The notes beneath the pieces were generated by a model. It was given only the letters and a program-made list of their open reading frames with translations, was not told the DNA's origin and ran no database searches. From Clostridia bacterium UC5.1-1E11 (GTDB taxonomy: Bacteria; Bacillota; Clostridia; Oscillospirales; Acutalibacteraceae), in NCBI GenBank assembly GCA_001305115.1, contig BCAA01000015.1, positions 1-64,000 of the forward strand: a DNA stretch of 64,000 nt, written 5' to 3'. Position 1 is the first letter of the stretch; each line of letters starts with the position of its first letter. This document shows positions 23,983 through 53,032 of this stretch, piece by piece. A program made the position numbers and the translations under genes.

Positions 23983-26611
<2,629 letters not shown>

Positions 26612-33933: not shown

Positions 33934-34999
33934 TCGGCAGGGAAGCAGTTGGGAAGGATCTCTGCACGGCGCAACGCCTGTACGGTTAGTAGCAAACATA
34001 CCAAGTAAACCAACAACAAAAAGCTATTGGCAGCCAATGCAAAATACAACGCTGCAAGCATTGCCAAGGGATGAATCTGTGTGGAAGCCGCCAATAGTTT
34101 TGGTTCCAATATCTGGCGTACTCCACAAACGATGAGCCAGGCCGCCACCAAAAGGACGCCCTTTATTGGATTCCCTTGGACAAAAAATAGAAATGCCACT
34201 GGCAAATAGACGGCACCAGGGCCAAACACCGGCAGCAAATCCGCGAATCCAGCAACCAAACTCAAAACTAAAGGATACGGTACACCAAGGGCAAAGAGGA
34301 TGCATAAAGTCTCTACAAATGTGATACAATACAGCAACAGATAGGACCCTAAATAACGCCCTCCCAAATGAACGCCGTGATGGGATGCCGCACGGAACAA
34401 TTCACGCCCCCGGACAGAGAGCATGCGGGACAAACGCCTTCGAATCCGGCCCATATCCTTAGAGAAAAATAAGTTGAGACAACCATCACAAGAAACATGG
34501 TCAACACGGCCGGAAGAGAAGTCAGAAACCCTAAGGCCGCGGTCAGTGCGCTAAGCAGAACAGAAGAGGCCGACTGCGCCAGGTTGAGCAGTTGCTTTTG
34601 ATTTTCCTGGATAAAATCCTGATCCATCCGCTCAACCAGTTCTCCGGCCTGTAAAAACAGACGATTTAGCGGTTCCGTTAGGCGGCCGAGGTCCGCATCC
34701 CGAATCGCACGAATCAAGTTGCTGATCTCTCCCACCAACCATATTCCCAGGAGGGACATTGCACCGATCAACAACACATACAGAGCGGCTGTGGTGATGG
34801 CTGCAGCACAGCCTGCCGTTACAGGAAGTTTTTGACGCAGAAGACGCACCACTGGCTGTAGCACCCACGCCAGGAGAAAGCCTGCCAAAAAAGGAAATGT
34901 ATAGCGTAGCGTTGCAGTAAACAACCAGAATGCCCCGGTGTATACAAGAAAGAAAGCGGCATAAGCCCTTCCTCTAGCCAATAATTCCCGATCCAGCAC
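33930..34999 (-). CDS. AI-2E family membrane protein (YtvI-like), one frameshift
   Basis: 356 residues after repair. Eight or so hydrophobic segments; FLAGFLLAWVLQPVVRLL near the start and GFADLLPVFGPGAVYLP near the end are hallmark AI-2E/PerM family stretches. In Clostridia and Bacilli this length matches the sporulation membrane protein YtvI. One base is missing from the A5 run (plus strand) at 34465-34469; restored, TYFFSKDMGRIRRRL reads through. Transport substrate unknown. Confidence 0.75.
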
Positions 35000-35189
35000 A
35001 GCAATCCCCCCATTCCATCATCAAATATATGGGAGGACAGCGCCCTTCTATACGTATAAAAAAGAGCGCCCCGCTTCTGGATTCGTACCGTGCCGGGTAC
35101 TACCGCCCTTGTTCGGTTCTTCACACCTACAGCGTACAAAGCAACCGAAATAGGCAATCCATCTGCGGAGCGCTCATGGTCTTTCGTTC

Positions 35190-41511: not shown

Positions 41512-42553
41512 TTACTTGCGCTCTATTCCCACCGCACGGCCCACCAGGTTGGTCAGGCAGCCGAACAGGATATTGGCATAATAGGTTACCAAGCGCCACA
41601 GAAGGATCGCTGGAATAATCGTCGGGCCGAAGAAAGTACCAAAAAGAGGTAAAAGCTTCCTTCTGCGCCCCCGGAAGAGCCCGGCAGAGGGATAAATGCT
41701 GACACCATAGTAACAAAGGTCTGCGCAGCCAACATGGTAAAGATCGTCGCATCCATATTTAACGGCAGATTGAAGCTTCGGTAAATAAAATAGGGAATTA
41801 GTCCCGCCAAGGTGATCTGTACAACGGTGAAAAAACCTGACTTTAAATAAACCTTGAACGAGGTTCCCATCGTCTTTGCACTGTCGTGAAACATCTCCAT
41901 CTGTCCATGAATCTTTTTATATTTTGCTACTGGATGCCGGCAAAGATGAACACGGTACAGATTCCGCAACAAAAAGCGCAGGAACCGGTCAGTAGCTTTC
42001 TCGCTTAGCATAAACAGTGTGACACCCAGAATAAATGATCCATTCGTTACAAGTCCGATGACCGTAACAAAAGAAAAATTACTGACATTCTGCTGAAAAT
42101 ATCCCAAGCGGAATACAACCATCACCATGGCATAAATGACCATGATTGCCTGATAGACCAGCGTTTTCATCGCTACAATCGACCCTGCTTTGCCTGTATC
42201 CACACCCATTTTGCTCATTGAATACATTTGCATCGGCTGCCCACCTGTTGCAAACGGCGTCAATGCGCTGTAGAGCAGGCCTGTCATTGCAATATGAAAG
42301 GACTGCGAAAATTTCCATTCCGGATACAGATGCTTACAAAAGACCCCCAGCACGTAGGTTTCCAACAGCCAACCACCGACCATGGCTCCCAGTGTAACCA
42401 GTAGCCATTCCCAACGAAGGCTGGAAGCGAGATGTCCCAAAGCGGTTATTCCATCCGTGGTAAACAGGAAATAAAGCAAAACCCCCATTGAGATCGCAAT
42501 GGTGATAATCGCCAATAGATTTTTTTAAGAATCCTTAAAACTTTGGCCCCCAT
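41512..42553 (-). CDS. UPF0104/LPG-synthase-like membrane protein, two frameshifts
   Basis: 347 residues after repair; ATG 42553 behind GGAGGAA. Multispan membrane protein of the flippase-like UPF0104 family (MprF transmembrane half): YSALTPFATGGQPMQMY and FIPLPGSSGGAEGSFYLFFG are its signature stretches. No lysyltransferase domain follows, so it is not a full MprF. One A is missing at T7 42520-42526 (plus) and one T at A5 41641-41645. Probably moves a lipid across the membrane; substrate unknown. Confidence 0.8.
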
Positions 42554-42775: not shown

Positions 42776-42973
42776 ATGGCGAACGATATGAATGGGCAAA
42801 TGTGCGATCTTGCACAGCCTACACCGTTGCCTTCGGTAACGGTACCCGCCATGGCTTATGTCCCATTTCAACAATTCAGCAGTATCTATCCCCCTGAACA
42901 GGGGCTAGACAACGGTACAATTTTTCCCGAATTGAATAAACCGTTCTATGGAAGGAGGGGAGAACCCAGATGA
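42776..42973 (+). CDS. cotJA: Spore coat-associated protein CotJA
   Basis: 65 residues behind AAAGGAGAG. MAYVPFQQFSSIYPPEQGL and GTIFPELNKPFYG are the CotJA pattern. Part of the cotJABC operon whose products sit in the inner spore coat; in B. subtilis the operon is made in the mother cell under sigma-E. Its stop overlaps the cotJB start (ATGA). A TGCATACTATG upstream (42692-42702) resembles a sigma-E -10 box, but no matching -35 was found. Confidence 0.88.
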   Translation: MANDMNGQMCDLAQPTPLPSVTVPAMAYVPFQQFSSIYPPEQGLDNGTIFPELNKPFYGRRGEPR

Positions 42974-43230
42974 ACGAACAGGAAATGTTGATGCGAAAAA
43001 TCTCTTCTCTGCGTTTTTCGATGTGGGAACTCCATTTGTTCCTGGACTCCCATCCGAATAACTGTGACGCTGCCCGCAAGCTCGAGGAAGCTCGTAAAAA
43101 AGCGGATGAACTTACCGCACAATACGAAGCCGCCTATGGCCCTCTACACGAAACCAGCAACACCACCAGCCGTTGGGCTTGGATTACAGGACCGTGGCCG
43201 TGGGAAACCGGAATGGAGGATGATGAATAA
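42970..43230 (+). CDS. cotJB: Spore coat protein CotJB
   Basis: 86 residues. MRKISSLRFSMWELHLFLDS, HPNNCDAARKLEE and the C-terminal WAWITGPWPWE match CotJB. Translationally coupled on both sides: starts inside the cotJA stop and ends TAATG with the cotJC start. CotJB is thought to help place CotJC in the coat. Confidence 0.9.
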   Translation: MNEQEMLMRKISSLRFSMWELHLFLDSHPNNCDAARKLEEARKKADELTAQYEAAYGPLHETSNTTSRWAWITGPWPWETGMEDDE

Positions 43231-43319
43231 TGTGGGTCTATGAGAAACGACTGGAATATCCAGTTAAAATTAAAAATCCGAATCCCGCTCTCGCAAAAAT
43301 TATTATCTCTCAATACGGT
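43230..43319 (+). CDS. cotJC: cotJC, 5' part (codons 1-30), interrupted by the element
   Basis: MWVYEKRLEYPVKIKNPNPA and LAKIIISQYG are the N-terminus of CotJC, the manganese-catalase-like spore coat protein. Reading then enters foreign sequence and stops at 43380, so the unrearranged product is only 50 residues. The rest of the gene is at 46427-46936 in the same orientation and, after joining at GGACC, in the same frame, giving 199 residues. The start overlaps the cotJB stop. Confidence 0.9.
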
Positions 43320-43341
43320 GGACCAAATCGCTATTTGAGAT
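43307..43341 (+). other. Left attachment site (attL) of the cotJC element
   Basis: Contains the crossover GGACC (43320-43324). Left of it lies the cotJC arm CTCTCAATACGGT; right of it the element arm ACCAAATCGCTATTTGAGA. Assigned by comparison with attR and by the requirement that the joined gene be in frame. Confidence 0.75.
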
Positions 43342-43387
43342 GCATGATTTACACTTTTGGGGAAAACTATTCCCGGAGGTGATTGTA

Positions 43388-43564
43388 ATGCAAAACAAAT
43401 ATCCCGATTTATACAGCCTATTGGAAAGTGACGGAGAAGCCCGCCAGTATTTTGACGCACTCCCCGATTACGTGCAGGAATGCATTCGAGATCGTTCCGG
43501 TGGTGTCAATTCATTTGAAAGTCTTTGTAATGCAGCGGACAAGTATACCCGCGGCGATGATTAA
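43388..43564 (+). CDS. Tiny acidic protein, paralog 1 of 3
   Basis: 58 residues, SD GGAGGTG. Core pattern DLYSLLESDGEARQYFDALP then VQECIRDRSGGVNSFESL. It shares D-L-[YF], Q-Y-[FY], L-P-x-x-[VM]-[QK] and a late [ST]-[FV]-[ED]-[DS]-L with the products at 44307 and 44494. Family unknown to me, predicted helical and soluble. It begins 6 nt after the stop of the truncated cotJC frame, so it would be read from the cotJ promoter before excision. Confidence 0.65.
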   Translation: MQNKYPDLYSLLESDGEARQYFDALPDYVQECIRDRSGGVNSFESLCNAADKYTRGDD

Positions 43565-43646
43565 GTTCTCAAAGGCAGTTTCGCATGAGACGGTCTTTTG
43601 CAACATATGATTGCAAAAACAGTTTAACAGAAAGGATGACCACTTT

Positions 43647-44276
43647 ATGAGGCAACAATATCCATTTTCTGTAGAACCTCTTCCCTACGATGCGCACGCA
43701 TTAGAACCTGTGATCGACGCGGAAACCTTACACTTCCACCATGACAAACATCTACAGGCCTATGTGGACAATTTGAACAAAACGTTGGCCGATTACCCAG
43801 AGTACCACGATTGGAGCCTGGAAAAGCTATTGACGCAGGGAGATGCTCTGCCAGAGGCAATTCGAACCCCCGTGCGAAACAACGCTGGCGGTGTGTACAA
43901 CCATCAGTTGTATTTTCGCAGTATGGGTCCCGAGAATCATTCAGGCCCATCCCCAGCATTGGCGAAAGAAATCGATTGTTATTTTGGCTCCTACGAAGCT
44001 TGGAAAGAAAAAATGAAAAATGCAGCAGTGACCCAATTTGGCTCTGGATGGGCTTGGCTTGCGGCCGACGAACAGGGACGATTACATGTGCTCAAAACAG
44101 CCAATCAGGATACCCCTCTCGCACTTCACATGTGTCCCTTACTTCCCATCGACGTTTGGGAACACGCCTACTATCTGCAATATCAGAATCGCCGCCCAGA
44201 GTATGTAGAGCAATGGTTTTCCATTATCAATTGGGATCAGGTTGAAAAACAATTTGCGATGTGTCGCAAAGGCTGA
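43647..44276 (+). CDS. Fe/Mn superoxide dismutase
   Basis: 209 residues from ATG 43647 (SD GAAAGGATG). YPFSVEPLPYDAHALEPVID, HFHHDKHLQAYVDNLN, GGVYNHQLYF, FGSGWAWLAADE and DVWEHAYYLQYQNRRPEYV carry the three His and one Asp metal ligands. Converts superoxide to H2O2 and O2. SodA is known as a spore coat component that helps crosslinking in Bacillus, and CotJC is a Mn-catalase, so the pair would make and remove peroxide in the same compartment. It lies inside the intervening element, an unusual cargo. Confidence 0.9.
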   Translation: MRQQYPFSVEPLPYDAHALEPVIDAETLHFHHDKHLQAYVDNLNKTLADYPEYHDWSLEKLLTQGDALPEAIRTPVRNNAGGVYNHQLYFRSMGPENHSGPSPALAKEIDCYFGSYEAWKEKMKNAAVTQFGSGWAWLAADEQGRLHVLKTANQDTPLALHMCPLLPIDVWEHAYYLQYQNRRPEYVEQWFSIINWDQVEKQFAMCRKG

Positions 44277-44306
44277 TTGTAACAGTCGGAAGAAGGAGGT
44301 TGTTCT

Positions 44307-44477
44307 ATGGAGGAATACGCGGATCTCTATCAACTTCTCTCCAAGGACTACGAAGCCAGTCAATACTATTCACTTCTGCCGTATGATGTCAAGCAGGCAT
44401 TAGGATTTAAAGCTGACAGCATCCTGAACTTTGACGACCTACACAATTTCGCCATGCACTGTCAAGAAGAGGAATGA
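44307..44477 (+). CDS. Tiny acidic protein, paralog 2 of 3
   Basis: 56 residues, SD AAGGAGG. DLYQLLSKDYEASQYYSLLP and DVKQALGFKADSILNFDDL align with the proteins at 43388 and 44494. Function unknown; follows the SOD gene by 30 nt and is probably cotranscribed. Confidence 0.65.
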   Translation: MEEYADLYQLLSKDYEASQYYSLLPYDVKQALGFKADSILNFDDLHNFAMHCQEEE

Positions 44478-44493
44478 CAAAAGGAGGCCCAAT

Positions 44494-44655
44494 ATGGCAA
44501 ACAGTCTGGACGATCTTTTCGAGGAAGCCCCGGACGTTTTGCAGTATTTTCTATCACTGCCGCCCGATATGCAGGATGCCATTAGCCTGCGTTCCGAGGA
44601 GATTTATACAGTGGACGATTTACAACAGTACGTGGAACTCTTACAAAACGGATAA
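44494..44655 (+). CDS. Tiny acidic protein, paralog 3 of 3
   Basis: 53 residues, SD AAGGAGG. DLFEEAPDVLQYFLSLPPDM and QDAISLRSEEIYTVDDL align with its two neighbours. Last gene of the plus-strand run before a strong terminator. Function unknown. Confidence 0.65.
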   Translation: MANSLDDLFEEAPDVLQYFLSLPPDMQDAISLRSEEIYTVDDLQQYVELLQNG

Positions 44656-44660
44656 TAAAA

Positions 44661-44702
44661 AGGGAAGCTCCTGCGGTCAATCCCGTGGAGCTTCCCTTTC
44701 TT
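44661..44702 (+). terminator. Bidirectional terminator inside the element
   Basis: 10-bp stem GGGAAGCTCC/GGAGCTTCCC with T runs on both strands, ending the plus-strand cargo and, converging, the minus-strand 77-residue gene, whose stop lies in the loop. Confidence 0.88.
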
Positions 44703-44910
44703 CAAGGACAATTCCAGACAATGCCTTCTCTAAAGCACGAAGCAGAGCATGTTCTTTAGCGGATTGTTCTGGGCGAGGGACCCAGTCATATCGTTTCATC
44801 ACTGTAAAATGGTCCATCCCCTTCTGCCCAGATGCCCTGCAAAAGAGATAAGAACTTCTTCGAACCGAACCCATATATACATCTGCGGTAAAATCATCTT
44901 TTCTCCCCAT
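44677..44910 (-). CDS. 77-residue protein divergent from the recombinase
   Basis: SD GGAGGG and ATG 44910. The sequence starts MGRKDDFTADVYMGSVRRSS, has a basic, aromatic first half (FTVMKRYDWVPR) and an acidic helical C-terminus (ALLRALEKALSGIVLEERE). I do not recognise a family. It shares a 98-bp divergent intergenic region with the recombinase gene, so a regulator of the recombinase or a directionality factor is conceivable; position is the only support. Confidence 0.6.
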   Translation of the reverse strand: MGRKDDFTADVYMGSVRRSSYLFCRASGQKGMDHFTVMKRYDWVPRPEQSAKEHALLRALEKALSGIVLEEREAPRD

Positions 44911-45008
44911 AATGCATCCCTCCGATGATTTATATTCGCGGAGACGTTCGTCCTATGCCGCATAATAAGCCTATCTTCCTTCTACAAATAGATCAAGGAG
45001 GAATCCAC

Positions 45009-46404
45009 ATGAAAATAGCTGCGGCCTACATACGTGTGTCAACCGATGGACAATTGGAATATAGCCCCGACAGCCAACTGAAGGTTGTCCGGGACTACGC
45101 GCAAAAAATGGGATGTTGCTCCCAGAATCCTTTATTTTTCAGGAGGAAGAAGGAATTAGTGGAAAACAGGCAGAAAAGCGTCCCGCTTTTATGCGTATGA
45201 TTGGAATGGCAAAACAAAAGCCCAAACCCTTTGACTGTATCCTCTTATGGAAATTCAGCCGTTTTGCACGAAGCCGGCGGGATAGCATTGTCTACAAAAC
45301 CATGTTACGGAAACAATTGGGTATTGATGTTATTTCTGTAACCGAACAGCTTGGCGACGATAAGCTCTCCCTTCTCCTAGAGGCAGTAATCGAAGCTATG
45401 GATGAATACTATAGCATCAATCTGGCAGAAGAGGTCAAACGTGGGATGTTGGAAAAAGTGAGCCGGGGTGAACCGGTCACACCCCCTGCATATGGTTATC
45501 GTATCCAAGAAAAGCGCTATATCCCGAATTCAGAAACCGCTCCAGTGGTACGATGGATGTTTGAACAACGAGCGCAGGGTATTTCCTGCAAAGAAATCGC
45601 CCAGCAGCTCAACGAAATGGGAATTCCTACTGCACGGGGGCTTCGTTGGGAAGCTCGTGCCGTAGAATATCTTTTACAAAACCCCGTCTACATCGGAAAA
45701 ATCCGTTGGAATCCGCACCGTTCTTCTGGGCGTCAAGAAACACAGCAACCATCCATGCTCACAGAGGGAAACCATAAACCTCTTGTGGACCTCGCTTTGT
45801 GGGCCGAAGTTCAAAATCAACAAAATCGTAGAATACGGCGAGAACGTCAGTGCCTCCCCAAAAGGTGTTATCCTTTGCGAGGCCTTGTTTTTGTTCTTCC
45901 TGTGGGGCGCCACTCGTCAAAAGCGCTCGGAATGCATTACAATGTTGCGGATATGCCCATGGCAACTGCACCATCTCCCACTACATTCCCAATCAAAGAT
46001 TAGAAGAATGGATTTATTGTACTTTAGACGCTGATCTTTCCCTACAAAATCTCCAGATGGCCCCCATCCCCCATGTGAATCCGGAAAGCCTTCTTCATTT
46101 GCAAGTGGAACGAGAAAAAAAGAAGCTGGAACGGCTTCGCGATGCCTACGAAGCTGGAGCCGAAACCCTGGAGGATTATTGTCGCGAGAAGGCACGCTTA
46201 CAAGCACGCCTCACCACGCTTACCGCCGATATGAAACGCCTATCGTTCCCATCTGTGGCTCATAAGCCAATCAACATTTCTTCCTTGCTTCGTTCAAACC
46301 AGATTACAGGGCAAGAGAAGAACCGCTTGTTACACACGATTTTTAAGCGTATTGTATTCGATTCTACAAAAAATCATCTGGATTGTTATTATCAAACCAT
46401 ATAA
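45009..46404 (+). CDS. Compact large serine recombinase, two frameshifts
   Basis: 465 residues after repair, short for the family. Resolvase domain 1-140: AAAYIRVSTDGQLEYSPDSQ carries the Arg-x-Ser catalytic motif; LLWKFSRFARSRRDS is the conserved Arg-rich stretch. Recombinase domain about 160-280 (PPAYGYRI, QRAQGISCKEIAQQLNEMGI, NPVYIGKIRWN), zinc ribbon FCSSCGAPL to CCGYAHGNC, then a coiled coil (VEREKKKLERLRDAYEAG). SD AAGGAGGA. Single bases are missing at A6 45103-45108 and T5 45888-45892. Expected to cut at the element ends; sits at the right end like other integrases. Confidence 0.88.
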
Positions 46405-46440
46405 ATCTCTCAACTTACGATCCGGGGGACCGCATGGAGA
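46405..46440 (+). other. Right attachment site (attR) of the cotJC element
   Basis: Crossover GGACC at 46427-46431. The element arm TCTCAACTTACGATCCGGG precedes it and the cotJC arm ACCGCATGGAGAG follows. ATCTCTCAA occurs here (46405) and in attL (43305), but 7 nt farther from the crossover. Confidence 0.75.
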
Positions 46441-46936
46441 GCTAGGCGCTTCTCTGCGCTATCTAAGCCAAAGATATAGCATGCCGTATCCAGAATTAAA
46501 AGCCATATTGACCGATATAGGTACGGAAGAACTGGCACACTTGGAGATGGTCAGCGCAATTGTCTATCAATTAACACGCGGTTTGACTACAGAACAGATC
46601 AAAAACGCTGGATTTGATACGTACTTTGTCGATCATACAACAGGTGTCTATCCACAAGCTGCCAGTGGCGAACCCTTTACAGCTAATACTTTTTCAGTAA
46701 CCGGAGATGTACTGGCTGATCTCCATGAGGATTTGAGTGCAGAACAAAAAGCTCGTTTAACGTATGATAACATTCTTCGTTACGCAGATGACCCGGATGT
46801 GCGTGATCCGATCAAATTCTTGCGTGAACGCGAAATTGTGCATTACCAACGTTTTGGCGAGGCACTCCGAATCGCTACTGATAATCTGGACTCCAAAAAC
46901 TTCTATGCCTTTAACCCATCGTTCGATAAAAAATAA
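46427..46936 (+). CDS. cotJC: cotJC, 3' part (codons 31-199)
   Basis: After the crossover: GGPHGELGASLRYLSQRYSM, TDIGTEELAHLEMVSAIVYQ, ANTFSVTGDVLADLHEDLSA and DPIKFLREREIVHYQRFGEA are the ferritin-like manganese catalase core with its metal-ligand Glu and His residues. It has no start or SD of its own here, so it is silent unless joined to codons 1-30 at 43230-43319. Followed by a strong terminator. Confidence 0.92.
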   Translation, partial: GPHGELGASLRYLSQRYSMPYPELKAILTDIGTEELAHLEMVSAIVYQLTRGLTTEQIKNAGFDTYFVDHTTGVYPQAASGEPFTANTFSVTGDVLADLHEDLSAEQKARLTYDNILRYADDPDVRDPIKFLREREIVHYQRFGEALRIATDNLDSKNFYAFNPSFDKK

Positions 46937-47905: not shown

Positions 47906-48827
47906 TTATTCGATTCTATTTAAATACTCTTCCGCCATATGAGAGGCTACAGCACCATCCGAAACAGCCGTCACGACCTGCCGGAGTACTTTTTGGCGTA
48001 CATCTCCGGCTGCGAAAACCCCAGGCAGATTTGTCTCTGTCGTCTCCCCTGCATCGACATAACCATTGGAAGTAAGTTTTATAGATTCTGCTATAAGAGC
48101 TGTATTGGGCACGTTTCCGACGGCGATAAACACACCGTCACACGAGATTTCCCTGGATTCCCCGGTTTTTTGTTTTTTACTCGAACTCCTGTGACGCTAC
48201 TATCTGCTAAAATTTCTTCCACAACAGTATCCCAAACAAATTCCACATTTTCACAGGCTTCAAGTGGTTTCAAGTAAGCCTTTGAGGCACGCAACGTATC
48301 TCTGCGATGCACCAAATAAATTTTTTGGCATATCTTAGATAAAAAAACGGTATCTGCGGCAGCAGTGTCTCCTCCTCCTACAACAACAACCGTCTTTCCC
48401 TTGTAAAACATGCCGTCGCAGGTGGCACAATAAGATACACCACGTCCACGAAGAGCGCGTTCTTCTGGCAAGCCCAGCTCCCTAGGGGAAGCCCCTAAAG
48501 CAAGAATCACAGCACGACTGGTAAAGGTATTTCCGTCCTCCGTGTGGATCTTTTTTCCGGCTCCGTCAGTTCCATAGAGGAAACCTGTGCAAAAGTACTC
48601 TCTGCGCCAAACCGTTCTGCTTGTTTCTGCATATTCATAGCAAGCTCAAAACCGTTGACTCCGTCAGCAAAGCCCGGATAATTGTCGATTTGATCGGTTG
48701 TCCCCATCTGTCCACCGGGCGCCATCGCTTCCAAAACCAATGTAGAGAGCGCTGCACGCGCACAATAAAGGGCCGCCGTATAACCAGCTGGTCCTCCGCC
48801 AACGATAATCACATCATATTGAGTCAA
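47906..48827 (-). CDS. trxB: Thioredoxin reductase, two frameshifts
   Basis: 307 residues after repair. TTG start behind AAGGAGGAG. FAD-binding [20 protein letters not shown], redox-active [15 protein letters not shown]-binding [15 protein letters not shown] and the final [20 protein letters not shown] are all classic. Reduces thioredoxin with NADPH. One A is missing from each of the T6 runs (plus strand) at 48551-48556 and 48166-48171. All catalytic parts are intact, so the gene is probably functional in the organism. Confidence 0.92.
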
Positions 48828-48927
48828 AGAAACTCCTCCTTTTTTGAACGGTTTTTACCTATTATCGTCACGATCAGTATACCCCATTATACCGAAGAAT
48901 AGAAAAAATAGGAAGACATAAAAGCAA

Positions 48928-51253: not shown

Positions 51254-52129
51254 ATGGATGGCTATCAAATCATCACGGATTCCAACACCGATTTTTCCCC
51301 CGCTCTTGCACAAGAGTTAGGTGTTGTGATCATTCCAATGGAATTCACCCTCAGTGGCGCATCGTATCTTCAATACCCCGACGAGCGAGACTTATCCAAC
51401 AAGTCCTTCTACGAACGCATAGCGGCGGGGGAAACGACCACTACCAATCAAATCAACGCTGCTACCTTTATCGAAACGTTTGAACGGTACCTGCAAGCGG
51501 GAATCGATGTACTTTATATCGGATTCTCCTCTGGATTGTCAGGGACATTCAATGGTTCCCGCTTGGTTGCACAGGATCTTTCTCAAAAATATCCTGACCG
51601 CCGTATCCTGGCTGTAGACTCTCTGGCGGCTTCCATGGGCGAAGGACTCTTGGTTTATCATGCTGTTATGCAACAACGTGCTGGACGAACAATTGATGAA
51701 GTAGCTTCCTGGGTCGAAACAAACCGCAACCGATTGGCGCATTGGTTCACCGTAGATGATCTCAACTTTCTAAAACGCGGCGGACGCGTATCCGGGGCAG
51801 CCGCATTATTTGGAACCATGCTGGGAATTAAGCCTGTTTTACATGTGGACGACGAGGGACACTTGATCCCAGTGGAAAAGGTGCGTGGGCGCAAAAACGC
51901 ATTGGATGCATTGGTCAATCATATGGCAAAGACGGTCGAGCATCCTGAAGAGCAGGTGATCTTTATCAGCCATGGAAACGCCCCTAAGGATGCCGAATAT
52001 GTCGCCGAACAGGTAAAATCACGTTTTGCTGTGCAAAATATTTACATCAACTATATTGGTCCCGTCATTGGATCGCACTCCGGTCCTGGGACGGTCGCTC
52101 TATTTTTCCTGGGAAACAGCAAAAATTAA
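51254..52129 (+). CDS. DegV family fatty-acid-binding protein (copy 1)
   Basis: 291 residues. ITDSNTDFSPALAQELGVVI opens the fold; TTTNQINAATF, FSSGLSGTFNGS and NFLKRGGRVSGAAA are the family's fatty-acid-binding stretches. DegV/FakB proteins present fatty acids to the kinase FakA for phospholipid synthesis; no fakA is seen here. SD AGGAG. First of a tandem pair 27 nt apart. Confidence 0.88.
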   Translation: MDGYQIITDSNTDFSPALAQELGVVIIPMEFTLSGASYLQYPDERDLSNKSFYERIAAGETTTTNQINAATFIETFERYLQAGIDVLYIGFSSGLSGTFNGSRLVAQDLSQKYPDRRILAVDSLAASMGEGLLVYHAVMQQRAGRTIDEVASWVETNRNRLAHWFTVDDLNFLKRGGRVSGAAALFGTMLGIKPVLHVDDEGHLIPVEKVRGRKNALDALVNHMAKTVEHPEEQVIFISHGNAPKDAEYVAEQVKSRFAVQNIYINYIGPVIGSHSGPGTVALFFLGNSKN

Positions 52130-52156
52130 GCGCATCCAAGGAGGGAAACGAATCGA

Positions 52157-53032
52157 ATGAATGACTATCAAATTATCACAGACGCCTGCGCGGATTTACC
52201 TCCCAAATTGGTAGAAGAGTTAGGCATCCATGTGATCCCTATGTCTTTTAACTTTGGGGATGAAAGTTATACCCATTATCCAGATGAGCGTGAGTATTCT
52301 GCAAAAGACTTTTTTGACCGCCTGCGCGGTGGCGATATGTCCACAACCAATCAAATTAATCAAGCAGCCTTTACCGAGGTGTTTGAAGGCTATCTGCAAA
52401 ACGGCGTGGACGTATTGTATATCGGCTTTTCCTCTGCCCTTTCTGGCACATACCACAACTCCGTATTGGTAGCGGAAGAACTATCTGCAAAGTATCCGGA
52501 TCGAACGCTATTGGTGGCGGATTCTTTGACCGCGACCCTCGGTACTGGACTGCTGGTTTATGCAGCGGTACAAAAGCAGCAGGAAGGAATGTCCATTGAG
52601 GACTTATATCAATGGGTGCAAACAGAACGGTTGCTTGTTTCCGGCTGGTTCACTGTTGATGATCTGAATTTTCTCAGGCGTGGTGGACGGTTGTCGGGTA
52701 CAGCGGCACTGGTTGGAACTATGTTAGGGATCAAGCCCATCCTGCGCATTACTGAAGACGGAAAACTGGTTCCCATGGAAAAGGTACGAGGCCGCAAGCA
52801 GTCGCTTCGTGTGCTTCTTGAGCATATGGACAAGACCTTCCGGGATACGGGTGACCAGGTCGTATTCATTGTCCATGGCGATTGTATGGATGACGCAGCG
52901 TATCTGAAAAAAGAAATTAAAAACCGTTATCGTATCAAACGCATCGTTACCAACAATATCGGCCCCATTATTGGGTCCCATACAGGCCCTGGCGCCATTG
53001 CGATTTTCTACATGGGAAAAGGACGCAATTGA
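52157..53032 (+). CDS. DegV family fatty-acid-binding protein (copy 2)
   Basis: 291 residues, exactly the same length as copy 1 and alike throughout (YQIITD, MSTTNQINQAAF, YIGFSSALSGTYHNS, NFLRRGGRLSGTAALVGTML, IGSHTGPGA), so a tandem duplication. Divergence is moderate, mostly in the lid region, which could mean different fatty-acid preference. SD GGAGGG. Confidence 0.88.
   Translation: MNDYQIITDACADLPPKLVEELGIHVIPMSFNFGDESYTHYPDEREYSAKDFFDRLRGGDMSTTNQINQAAFTEVFEGYLQNGVDVLYIGFSSALSGTYHNSVLVAEELSAKYPDRTLLVADSLTATLGTGLLVYAAVQKQQEGMSIEDLYQWVQTERLLVSGWFTVDDLNFLRRGGRLSGTAALVGTMLGIKPILRITEDGKLVPMEKVRGRKQSLRVLLEHMDKTFRDTGDQVVFIVHGDCMDDAAYLKKEIKNRYRIKRIVTNNIGPIIGSHTGPGAIAIFYMGKGRN

Follow-up and report, generated by a model that had tools for sequence, protein, structure and literature searches.

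The window, which is the whole 64,000-nucleotide stretch of DNA that was analysed (Clostridia bacterium UC5.1-1E11, contig BCAA01000015.1), contains a cotJ locus in which cotJA, cotJB and the 3' part of cotJC appear in the expected gene order in a Pfam profile search (Table 1). Codon 30 of cotJC ends at position 43319 and codon 31 begins at position 46427, leaving a gap of 3,107 bp between them. The sequence GGACC occurs at 43320 and again at 46427, and a joint there gives a CotJC of 199 residues with no stops. The original prediction placed a skin-like element at this point. The separation of codons 1-30 from codons 31-199 is borne out by coordinates and Pfam matches that agree, and the uninterrupted product of joining at the shared GGACC holds when the joined sequence is read. 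The element thus lies within the coding sequence of a sporulation gene, its expression in sporulation here being taken from gene identity.

Table 1. Features of the split cotJ locus and its intervening element (positions within the window)
Feature	Position	Strand	Evidence or remark
cotJA	42776..42970	+	Pfam CotJA 4.1e-19
cotJB	42970..43230	+	Pfam CotJB 6.2e-25
cotJC 5' part, codons 1-30	43230..43319	+	Open frame extends into the element, stop at 43382
attL-like boundary	43300..43341	+	Joining dinucleotide GG at 43320-43321
Intervening element, 3,107 bp	43320..46426	+	Same split in congeners; boundary-pair analysis
Small ORF 1 (58 aa)	43388..43564	+	Conserved in genus; no confident family match
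Fe/Mn superoxide dismutase	43647..44276	+	Pfam Sod_Fe_C 4.4e-41, Sod_Fe_N 2.6e-24
Small ORF 2 (56 aa)	44307..44477	+	Conserved in genus; no family match
Small ORF 3 (53 aa)	44494..44655	+	Conserved in genus; best match a weak ParB-like PHROG, 0.0051; no confident family
Divergent small ORF (77 aa), candidate recombination directionality factor	44677..44910	-	Same-place ORFs in congeners and minimal elements
Large serine recombinase, three frames in this assembly	45009..46404	+	Pfam Recombinase 7e-25, Resolvase 4.8e-15 (middle piece)
attR-like boundary	46407..46448	+	Joining dinucleotide GG at 46427-46428
cotJC 3' part, codons 31-199	46427..46936	+	Pfam Mn_catalase 3.6e-38

Two objections to the split gene are rejected. 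A second intact cotJC elsewhere in the genome, which would have counted against the original prediction, was looked for, and only a paralogue turned up: another Mn-catalase gene (G000:C2:93974-94528) has 35% identity to the joined CotJC, compared to 67-83% for full-length CotJC orthologues (except G117, 51%). The split is also not an assembly artefact, since three congeners are split at the same place, again with a joint that stays in frame, and the site is common to 73 of the 80 best loci in genome_contigs. The recurrence of the in-frame joint in these congeners and in 23 codon-31 boundary pairs (window included) places the split beyond chance.

The element is retained in the inherited genome, with the same cargo order (small ORF 1, superoxide dismutase, small ORF 2, small ORF 3, recombinase) at codon 31 in all four congeners. 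Apart from its superoxide dismutase, this genome gives no Sod_Fe_C match. No phage structural or lysis genes are found among its ORFs with Pfam and NCBIfam, or with PHROGs for the four small ORFs only, and the element is not a complete temperate prophage in the sense of carrying both structural and lysis genes.

Rejoining restores an in-frame CotJC in all 39 boundary pairs examined, which are the pairs whose two ends both fall on fetched stretches, apart from the codon-31 pair of G131. These pairs fall at codon 31 (n = 23, window included), codon 62 (n = 7), codon 136 (n = 2) and codon 175 (n = 7). In the circle junction of the window element, 13 of the 20 positions flanking the joining GG are complementary, and the next best center reaches only 6. 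The best dyad center coincides with the joining dinucleotide in 36/39 pairs; no dyad is seen at the core of three codon-62 elements (G010, G184 and G118), and the dyad of the codon-175 pair of G131 reaches only 7/20.

Interruption of cotJC is widespread among relatives. As many as 80 of the 150 same-family genomes with a cotJC orthologue have the gene only in pieces, in a census that excludes rows with an identity of at most 39% as paralogues, a single G159 row excepted, and in which some single-fragment genomes may be mere contig breaks. Breaks are concentrated at codons 31, 62, 136 and 175, and a gene has up to three of them. Ten genomes have an intact cotJC and an extra 3' fragment, which in G034 is probably a contig overlap and in L113 and L061 looks like a repaired gene end. 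Among the best 80 relatives of the codon-31 recombinase in genome_contigs, the 73 at codon 31 of cotJC comprise 72 found by script and one (L167) by reading. The recombinases group by target codon. In a tree of 50, those at codon 31 (20, with a modest clade support of 0.555), codon 136 (4) and codon 175 (8) form one clade each, and the 18 at codon 62 form two groups.

The split is also carried by a Ruminococcus flavefaciens strain (L180). This species is not known to sporulate, and its split gene counts against a skin-type explanation. A literature search on sporulation in Anaeromassilibacillus gave general statements on gene content only.

Related elements also appear in forms that resemble excision products. 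In IMG/VR, cotJC flanks accompany 21 of 80 loci with related recombinases, and at 33 of the 80 a symmetric attP-like junction lies next to the recombinase stop codon, as expected for an excised or phage form. Such junctions also occur in L170 and L204, and none are seen for the window's genus. In the metagenome-derived genome G232, the attP-like junction (L170) lies on one contig and an intact cotJC on another. A pattern search for coexisting integrated and excised junctions gives a single copy at a contig end in G033 and two matches in G232, which are the intact cotJC and a site inside a gene read as an iron transporter. Two contigs of G175 have 55 bases in common up to codon 175, and one of the two reads across this codon intact, which is suggestive only. 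No circular contigs are recognized through terminal overlap among 40 tested.

Some of these related elements sit in viral contigs of phage size, alongside attP-like junctions, and part of the set may therefore reflect nothing more than phages using the site. It could be proposed on this basis that phages and mobilizable elements merely exploit the conserved cotJC DNA as an attB site, that the gene is dispensable, and that excision follows the phage life cycle and not development. Dispensability would agree with the statement, in the available part of one report (PMC12122855), that Bacillus subtilis mutants without CotJC in the coat have no apparent defects. We nonetheless consider this account unlikely. 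Without excision the carriers would have no CotJC, yet their displaced 3' parts are stop-free in 21/21 cases and as constrained as intact genes (median pN/pS 0.221 over 210 pairs, compared to 0.251 over 120 pairs for 16 intact genes). Small elements of 2.3-4 kb moreover keep an open recombinase at one end, and the same element is retained in all four congeners.

It is very improbable that the insertion is simply dead in this strain, with the recombinase a pseudogene and cotJC permanently broken. Such a reading draws on the two frame breaks in the recombinase, whose frames start at 45009, 45113 and 45850. However, 4 of the 21 other window genes are frame-split compared to G003 and three congeners (G001-G003) have an intact recombinase at this site, which makes indel errors in the assembly likely. 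Both cotJC parts are also open and constrained against G003 (pN/pS 0.08 for each). The recombinase is present as originally predicted, with Pfam matches here and intact copies in congeners, but not as an intact gene in this assembly; it is probably functional in this strain. It is scarcely conceivable that the two cotJC parts yield two independent polypeptides which then combine to an active catalase: a TTG lying upstream of the 3' part can open an ORF, but the open frame with the codon-31 3' part ranges from 170 to 320 residues across genomes, and with a length that varies so widely no shared start is evident.

The explanation that we favor, and regard as highly probable, is that the 3.1-kb segment is a skin-type sporulation-gene intervening element in cotJC that is excised in the mother cell. 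The large serine recombinase and a small directionality factor would recombine attL with attR at the GG of codon 31, releasing a circle and restoring an in-frame cotJC of 199 codons within the cotJABC operon. Excision would most likely be confined to the mother cell, which dies, and the split gene would be inherited through the spore. In relatives, recombinases of other clades target three further codons of the same gene, which makes cotJC a gene that such elements have entered repeatedly in Clostridia. The sequence-based part of this explanation comprises the split, the in-frame joint, att symmetry, the site-specific recombinase clades, constraint and the excised-form junctions of related elements. 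That a skin-like element can leave the gene in frame, as originally predicted, is strongly supported by the relatives, by att symmetry, by recombinase phylogeny and by selection on both gene parts. The frame breaks in the recombinase, the superoxide dismutase and the recurrence of interruptions at four or more points were not part of that prediction. We infer that excision occurs during sporulation and is restricted to the mother cell, which fits the evidence: a split gene that passes to progeny while keeping a functional sequence accords with excision in a cell that is not passed on.

The element shares several characteristics of the skin/vfbin/vrin/gin/yin class, namely an interrupted sporulation gene, end repeats that restore the frame, its own serine recombinase (frame-broken in the window) and retention in the inherited genome. 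The skin element of Clostridioides difficile (Serrano et al. 2016, PMC5025042, available text) likewise interrupts a mother-cell sporulation gene, sigK, and contains its serine recombinase (CD1231). Its small directionality factor CD1234 (72 aa), which the authors place under sigma-E and SpoIIID, has a candidate counterpart here in the 77-aa ORF. However, its target is a sigma factor, whereas here a coat enzyme is interrupted by a 3.1-kb element with a superoxide dismutase. The gin element in gerE of Bacillus cereus (Abe et al. 2017, PMC5595907, available text) similarly uses a serine recombinase (GirC, with a helper, GirX), has no phage genes and interrupts a short gene that is restored exactly, but it is 28.6 kb long with three recombinase genes, compared to one in the 2.3-4 kb forms here. 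The yin element in yabG of Clostridium botulinum, reported in integrated and circular forms, also combines a recombinase with a putative small factor in a sporulation gene; it is described as unique to one strain in the available text (PMC10747680), whereas here one gene is targeted at four codons in many species. Removal of SP-beta from spsM and skin from sigK in Bacillus subtilis gives composite sporulation genes as well (PMC4191935, PMC6957869). The authors of the later paper (PMC6957869) argue that the discarding of the mother cell is what lets such elements persist; the available parts of neither paper mention a gene that is interrupted repeatedly, as seen here. The phi027 prophage by cotG of C. 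difficile adjoins a cotJC homologue, but the available text describes it as adjacent to the gene (PMC11222575, PMC12122855) and not as splitting it, unlike the element here. In line with the original prediction, our literature searches, in the parts of the sources available, found no description of cotJC as the target of such an element.

Programmed DNA excision in sporulation has been described, in the available parts of the literature, for a handful of genes with one element per gene, while here about five recombinase groups target a single gene of 200 codons, at four of its codons. We are evenly divided on a broader reading, in which cotJC would be repeatedly interrupted across Clostridia and about half of this family's species would hold it as two to four fragments only. 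A working spore catalase would then be obtained by up to three site-specific excisions, each with a recombinase dedicated to its codon, in the terminal mother cell. In the window's genus the element would act as a switch, with the cotJ operon reading into superoxide dismutase before excision and into catalase after it. Confirmation would make the reconstitution of genes a common step in building the spore coat of gut Clostridia, and annotations that list cotJC of these bacteria as truncated or missing would have to be revised. Cultured strains among the carriers would allow direct testing, and the 2.3-kb elements would provide compact excision systems of natural origin whose att sites are defined.

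The best candidate for the directionality factor appears to be the divergent 77-aa ORF, whose family occurs in 25/92 loci in addition to the window. Scans for the sigma-E and sigma-K consensus each give a match in 1 of 27 stretches upstream of this candidate, with no enrichment, and in none of 92 upstream of the recombinase. A GGACA box, first noticed by eye and then counted as one of six patterns tried, has the form WWRGGACARNY, which we take to be a SpoIIID-type consensus. It occurs upstream of the candidate factor in 6/27 stretches, two of which (L141 and L142) are close relatives, compared to a mean of 0.06 in shuffles and 0/27 on the other strand. The window copy matches the pattern incompletely, and as a putative SpoIIID site upstream of the candidate factor the box is a lead only.

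The original prediction that cotJC is divided in the window is borne out at the same coordinates (see table). GGACC is present at 43320 and again at 46427, and joining the window sequence at both copies gives, as predicted, a single open frame of 199 residues. The split is real, and it was understated. Judged from its sequence organization, the element would work like skin: it shows those structural hallmarks of the class that were open to testing, and excision timed to sporulation is a prediction for it. The original prediction named no described case, and no intervening element in cotJC was found in the literature covered, mainly titles and abstract openings. Neither catalase nor CotJC is mentioned in the main text of a large serine recombinase survey (PMC10083194).

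Coordinates of the cotJ genes, the intervening DNA and frame-split genes in the window
Feature	Positions	Remark
cotJA	42776-42970	
cotJB	42970-43230	
cotJC codons 1-30	43230-43319	
Intervening DNA	43320-46426	3,107 bp, between cotJC codons 30 and 31
cotJC codons 31-199	46427-46936	
Frame-split gene	24010-26611	relative to G003
Frame-split gene	33942-35014	relative to G003
Frame-split gene	41536-42524	relative to G003
Frame-split gene	47915-48842	relative to G003

The element carries genes for an Fe/Mn superoxide dismutase and for a large serine recombinase, the latter ending 22 bp before the right boundary, together with three conserved small ORFs and a divergent one of 77 aa. The predicted recombinase is present, and in all three congeners (G001-G003) it is a single open frame of 463-474 residues in the same place; in the window it is spread over three reading frames, which had gone unreported. 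The simplest reading of these frame breaks would be indel errors, which are also suggested for this assembly by four of the 21 G003 ORFs compared with the window, whose orthologues there are split over frames (table). One of these four looks to us like thioredoxin reductase, and a second is 896 residues long. In the opposite direction three of 23 ORFs are flagged, two of which are a tandem paralogue pair. Paralogous ORFs of 291 residues stand in tandem at 51254-53032, and G003 has them too.

Interruption of cotJC is common in the family. Among 200 genomes screened, 156 have a Mn-catalase match, and a search of these with the joined CotJC finds an orthologue in 150: intact only in 60, in pieces only in 80, and intact with an extra 3' fragment in 10. 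The figure of 80 is an upper one because the break in some genomes with a single fragment may be simply that of a contig. The breaks in these genomes lie near codon 31 (39 genomes), codon 62 (31), codon 136 (11) and codon 175 (21), and four other breakpoints occur once each. Four genomes (G118, G024, G086 and G112) have cotJC in four pieces, which corresponds to three interruptions, and on contig G118:C23 (L098-L100) all four pieces lie in order within 48 kb, separated by elements of 4.0, 20.7 and 22.6 kb. The single-contig genome G228 (C1; L111, L112, L083) has three pieces. In other families of the class at least 98 of 146 genomes matched, and the matches listed include cotJC fragments with breaks near codons 31 and 62. 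Four loci (L113, L061, L114 and L115) have an intact cotJC and, about 1.3 to 6 kb downstream, a second 3' fragment whose start falls on one of the four cores or close to it; no recombinase was found at these loci. These fragments are possibly gene ends repaired after element decay.

Both boundaries lie on fetched stretches for 39 pairs (23 at codon 31, seven at 62, two at 136 and seven at 175), a few of which may be the same genome under two handles, and the conserved protein is rejoined in frame in all 39. The joining dinucleotide is GG at codons 31 and 62 and GA at codons 136 and 175. When centres within 24 bases are compared wherever both copies share a dinucleotide, the highest-scoring dyad centre in the circle junction coincides with the joining dinucleotide in 36 of 39 pairs; the exceptions are at codon 62, in G010, G184 and G118. 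Scores at this dinucleotide are 7-19 of 20 (the 7 is from G131); the first 12 codon-31 elements score 10-18, and no other centre in them exceeds 9. The elements measure 2,312 to 31,408 bp, and in the smallest (G200) the recombinase is accompanied by an Amidase_6 gene and a divergent small ORF. The codon-31 core forms one end of three contigs (G033:C6, G022:C49 and G229:C206), a pattern that two alternative junctions in the sequenced DNA would produce. No partner contig was found for the G033:C6 end.

The 50 associated recombinases sort by site. Those of codons 31 (n=20), 136 (n=4) and 175 (n=8) form one clade each, and the 18 of codon 62 divide into a 12-member clade and a second group of six, one member of which lies 6.6 kb away from the boundary. 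The codon-31 clade is supported at 0.555; the codon-136, codon-175 and 12-member codon-62 clades reach 1.0. Median identity is 42% within the codon-31 group and 19-23% between site groups. Candidates were chosen by a profile seeded from one codon-31 recombinase, so more distant recombinases may be missed. When the codon-31 group was searched against genome_contigs, a script placed 72 of the best 80 loci at the codon-31 site of cotJC, and reading added L167. L170 and L204 have a junction like that of a circle (attP-like), L199 stops at the core, and L164 and L209 end within the gene. At L175:11400-11600 a codon-31-type recombinase precedes another gene, whose CCTCCCGACGG stretch resembles the cotJC core region; we read this as an off-target or relocated element. 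With L175, these loci account for all of the 80 but L154.

Among 80 IMG/VR loci with related recombinases, cotJC adjoins the recombinase in 21. Of the other 59, 33 (a few on near-duplicate contigs) have a junction near the recombinase stop codon in which 12-17 of 20 positions are symmetric about a central GG or CC; just one of the 21 loci with cotJC flanks reaches 12, at another position. Such elements therefore probably exist as free or circular DNA. The metagenome-derived genome G232 has a symmetric junction on one contig and an intact cotJC on another, possibly from mixed strains.

Selection was assessed over codons 40-169 in 23 split and 16 intact genes, of which 21 and 16 give the full stretch. 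None of the 21 split genes has a stop, and their median pN/pS is 0.221 (210 pairs), against 0.251 (120 pairs) for intact genes. Between the window genome (G000) and G003 it is 0.08 in the 5' and 3' parts alike. Such sequences would be unexpected for a gene that had never functioned. The element is nonetheless passed on in four congeners, its cargo in one shared order, so excision most likely takes place in cells that leave no inherited DNA. The same argument is made for the mother cell in PMC6957869.

In the window, the congeners and the minimal elements, the divergent small ORF, a candidate directionality factor, is found upstream of the recombinase. A profile of its family matches the window and 25 of 92 loci, in 24 of these 25 on the divergent strand. 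Membership is approximate, since iteration of the profile drew on its own hits and since L091 and L165 belong to a single genome. The GGACA box upstream of this ORF shows enrichment, though it had been spotted before it was tested. Sigma-E or sigma-K patterns are not enriched in the upstream stretches scanned. A conserved ATAGGAC box on the ORF's strand, upstream of it at 44911-44990 and in relatives, resembles what we take to be a SpoIIID site. The candidate has 77 aa in the window, compared with 72 residues for the C. difficile factor CD1234, which depends on sigma-E and SpoIIID according to PMC5025042.

The possibility of a second intact cotJC, raised in the original prediction, was followed in the window genome (93% complete), which has one further clear Mn-catalase gene, on G000:C2, and a weak match on C12. 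The joined CotJC shares 35% identity with the product of the C2 gene and 67-83% with the full-length orthologues found (51% in G117), so we regard the C2 gene as a paralogue and reject it as an intact copy. The genome belongs to the same genus as Anaeromassilibacillus senegalensis mt9 (G003) and Anaeromassilibacillus sp. An250 (G002); the third congener, G001, is Clostridium sp. D33t1_170424_F3. A chicken-caecum isolate assigned to A. senegalensis is reported among those not surviving one hour in air (PMC6069880). G000 and G002 have no Sod_Fe_C match other than the superoxide dismutase of the element; G001 and G003 each have a second.
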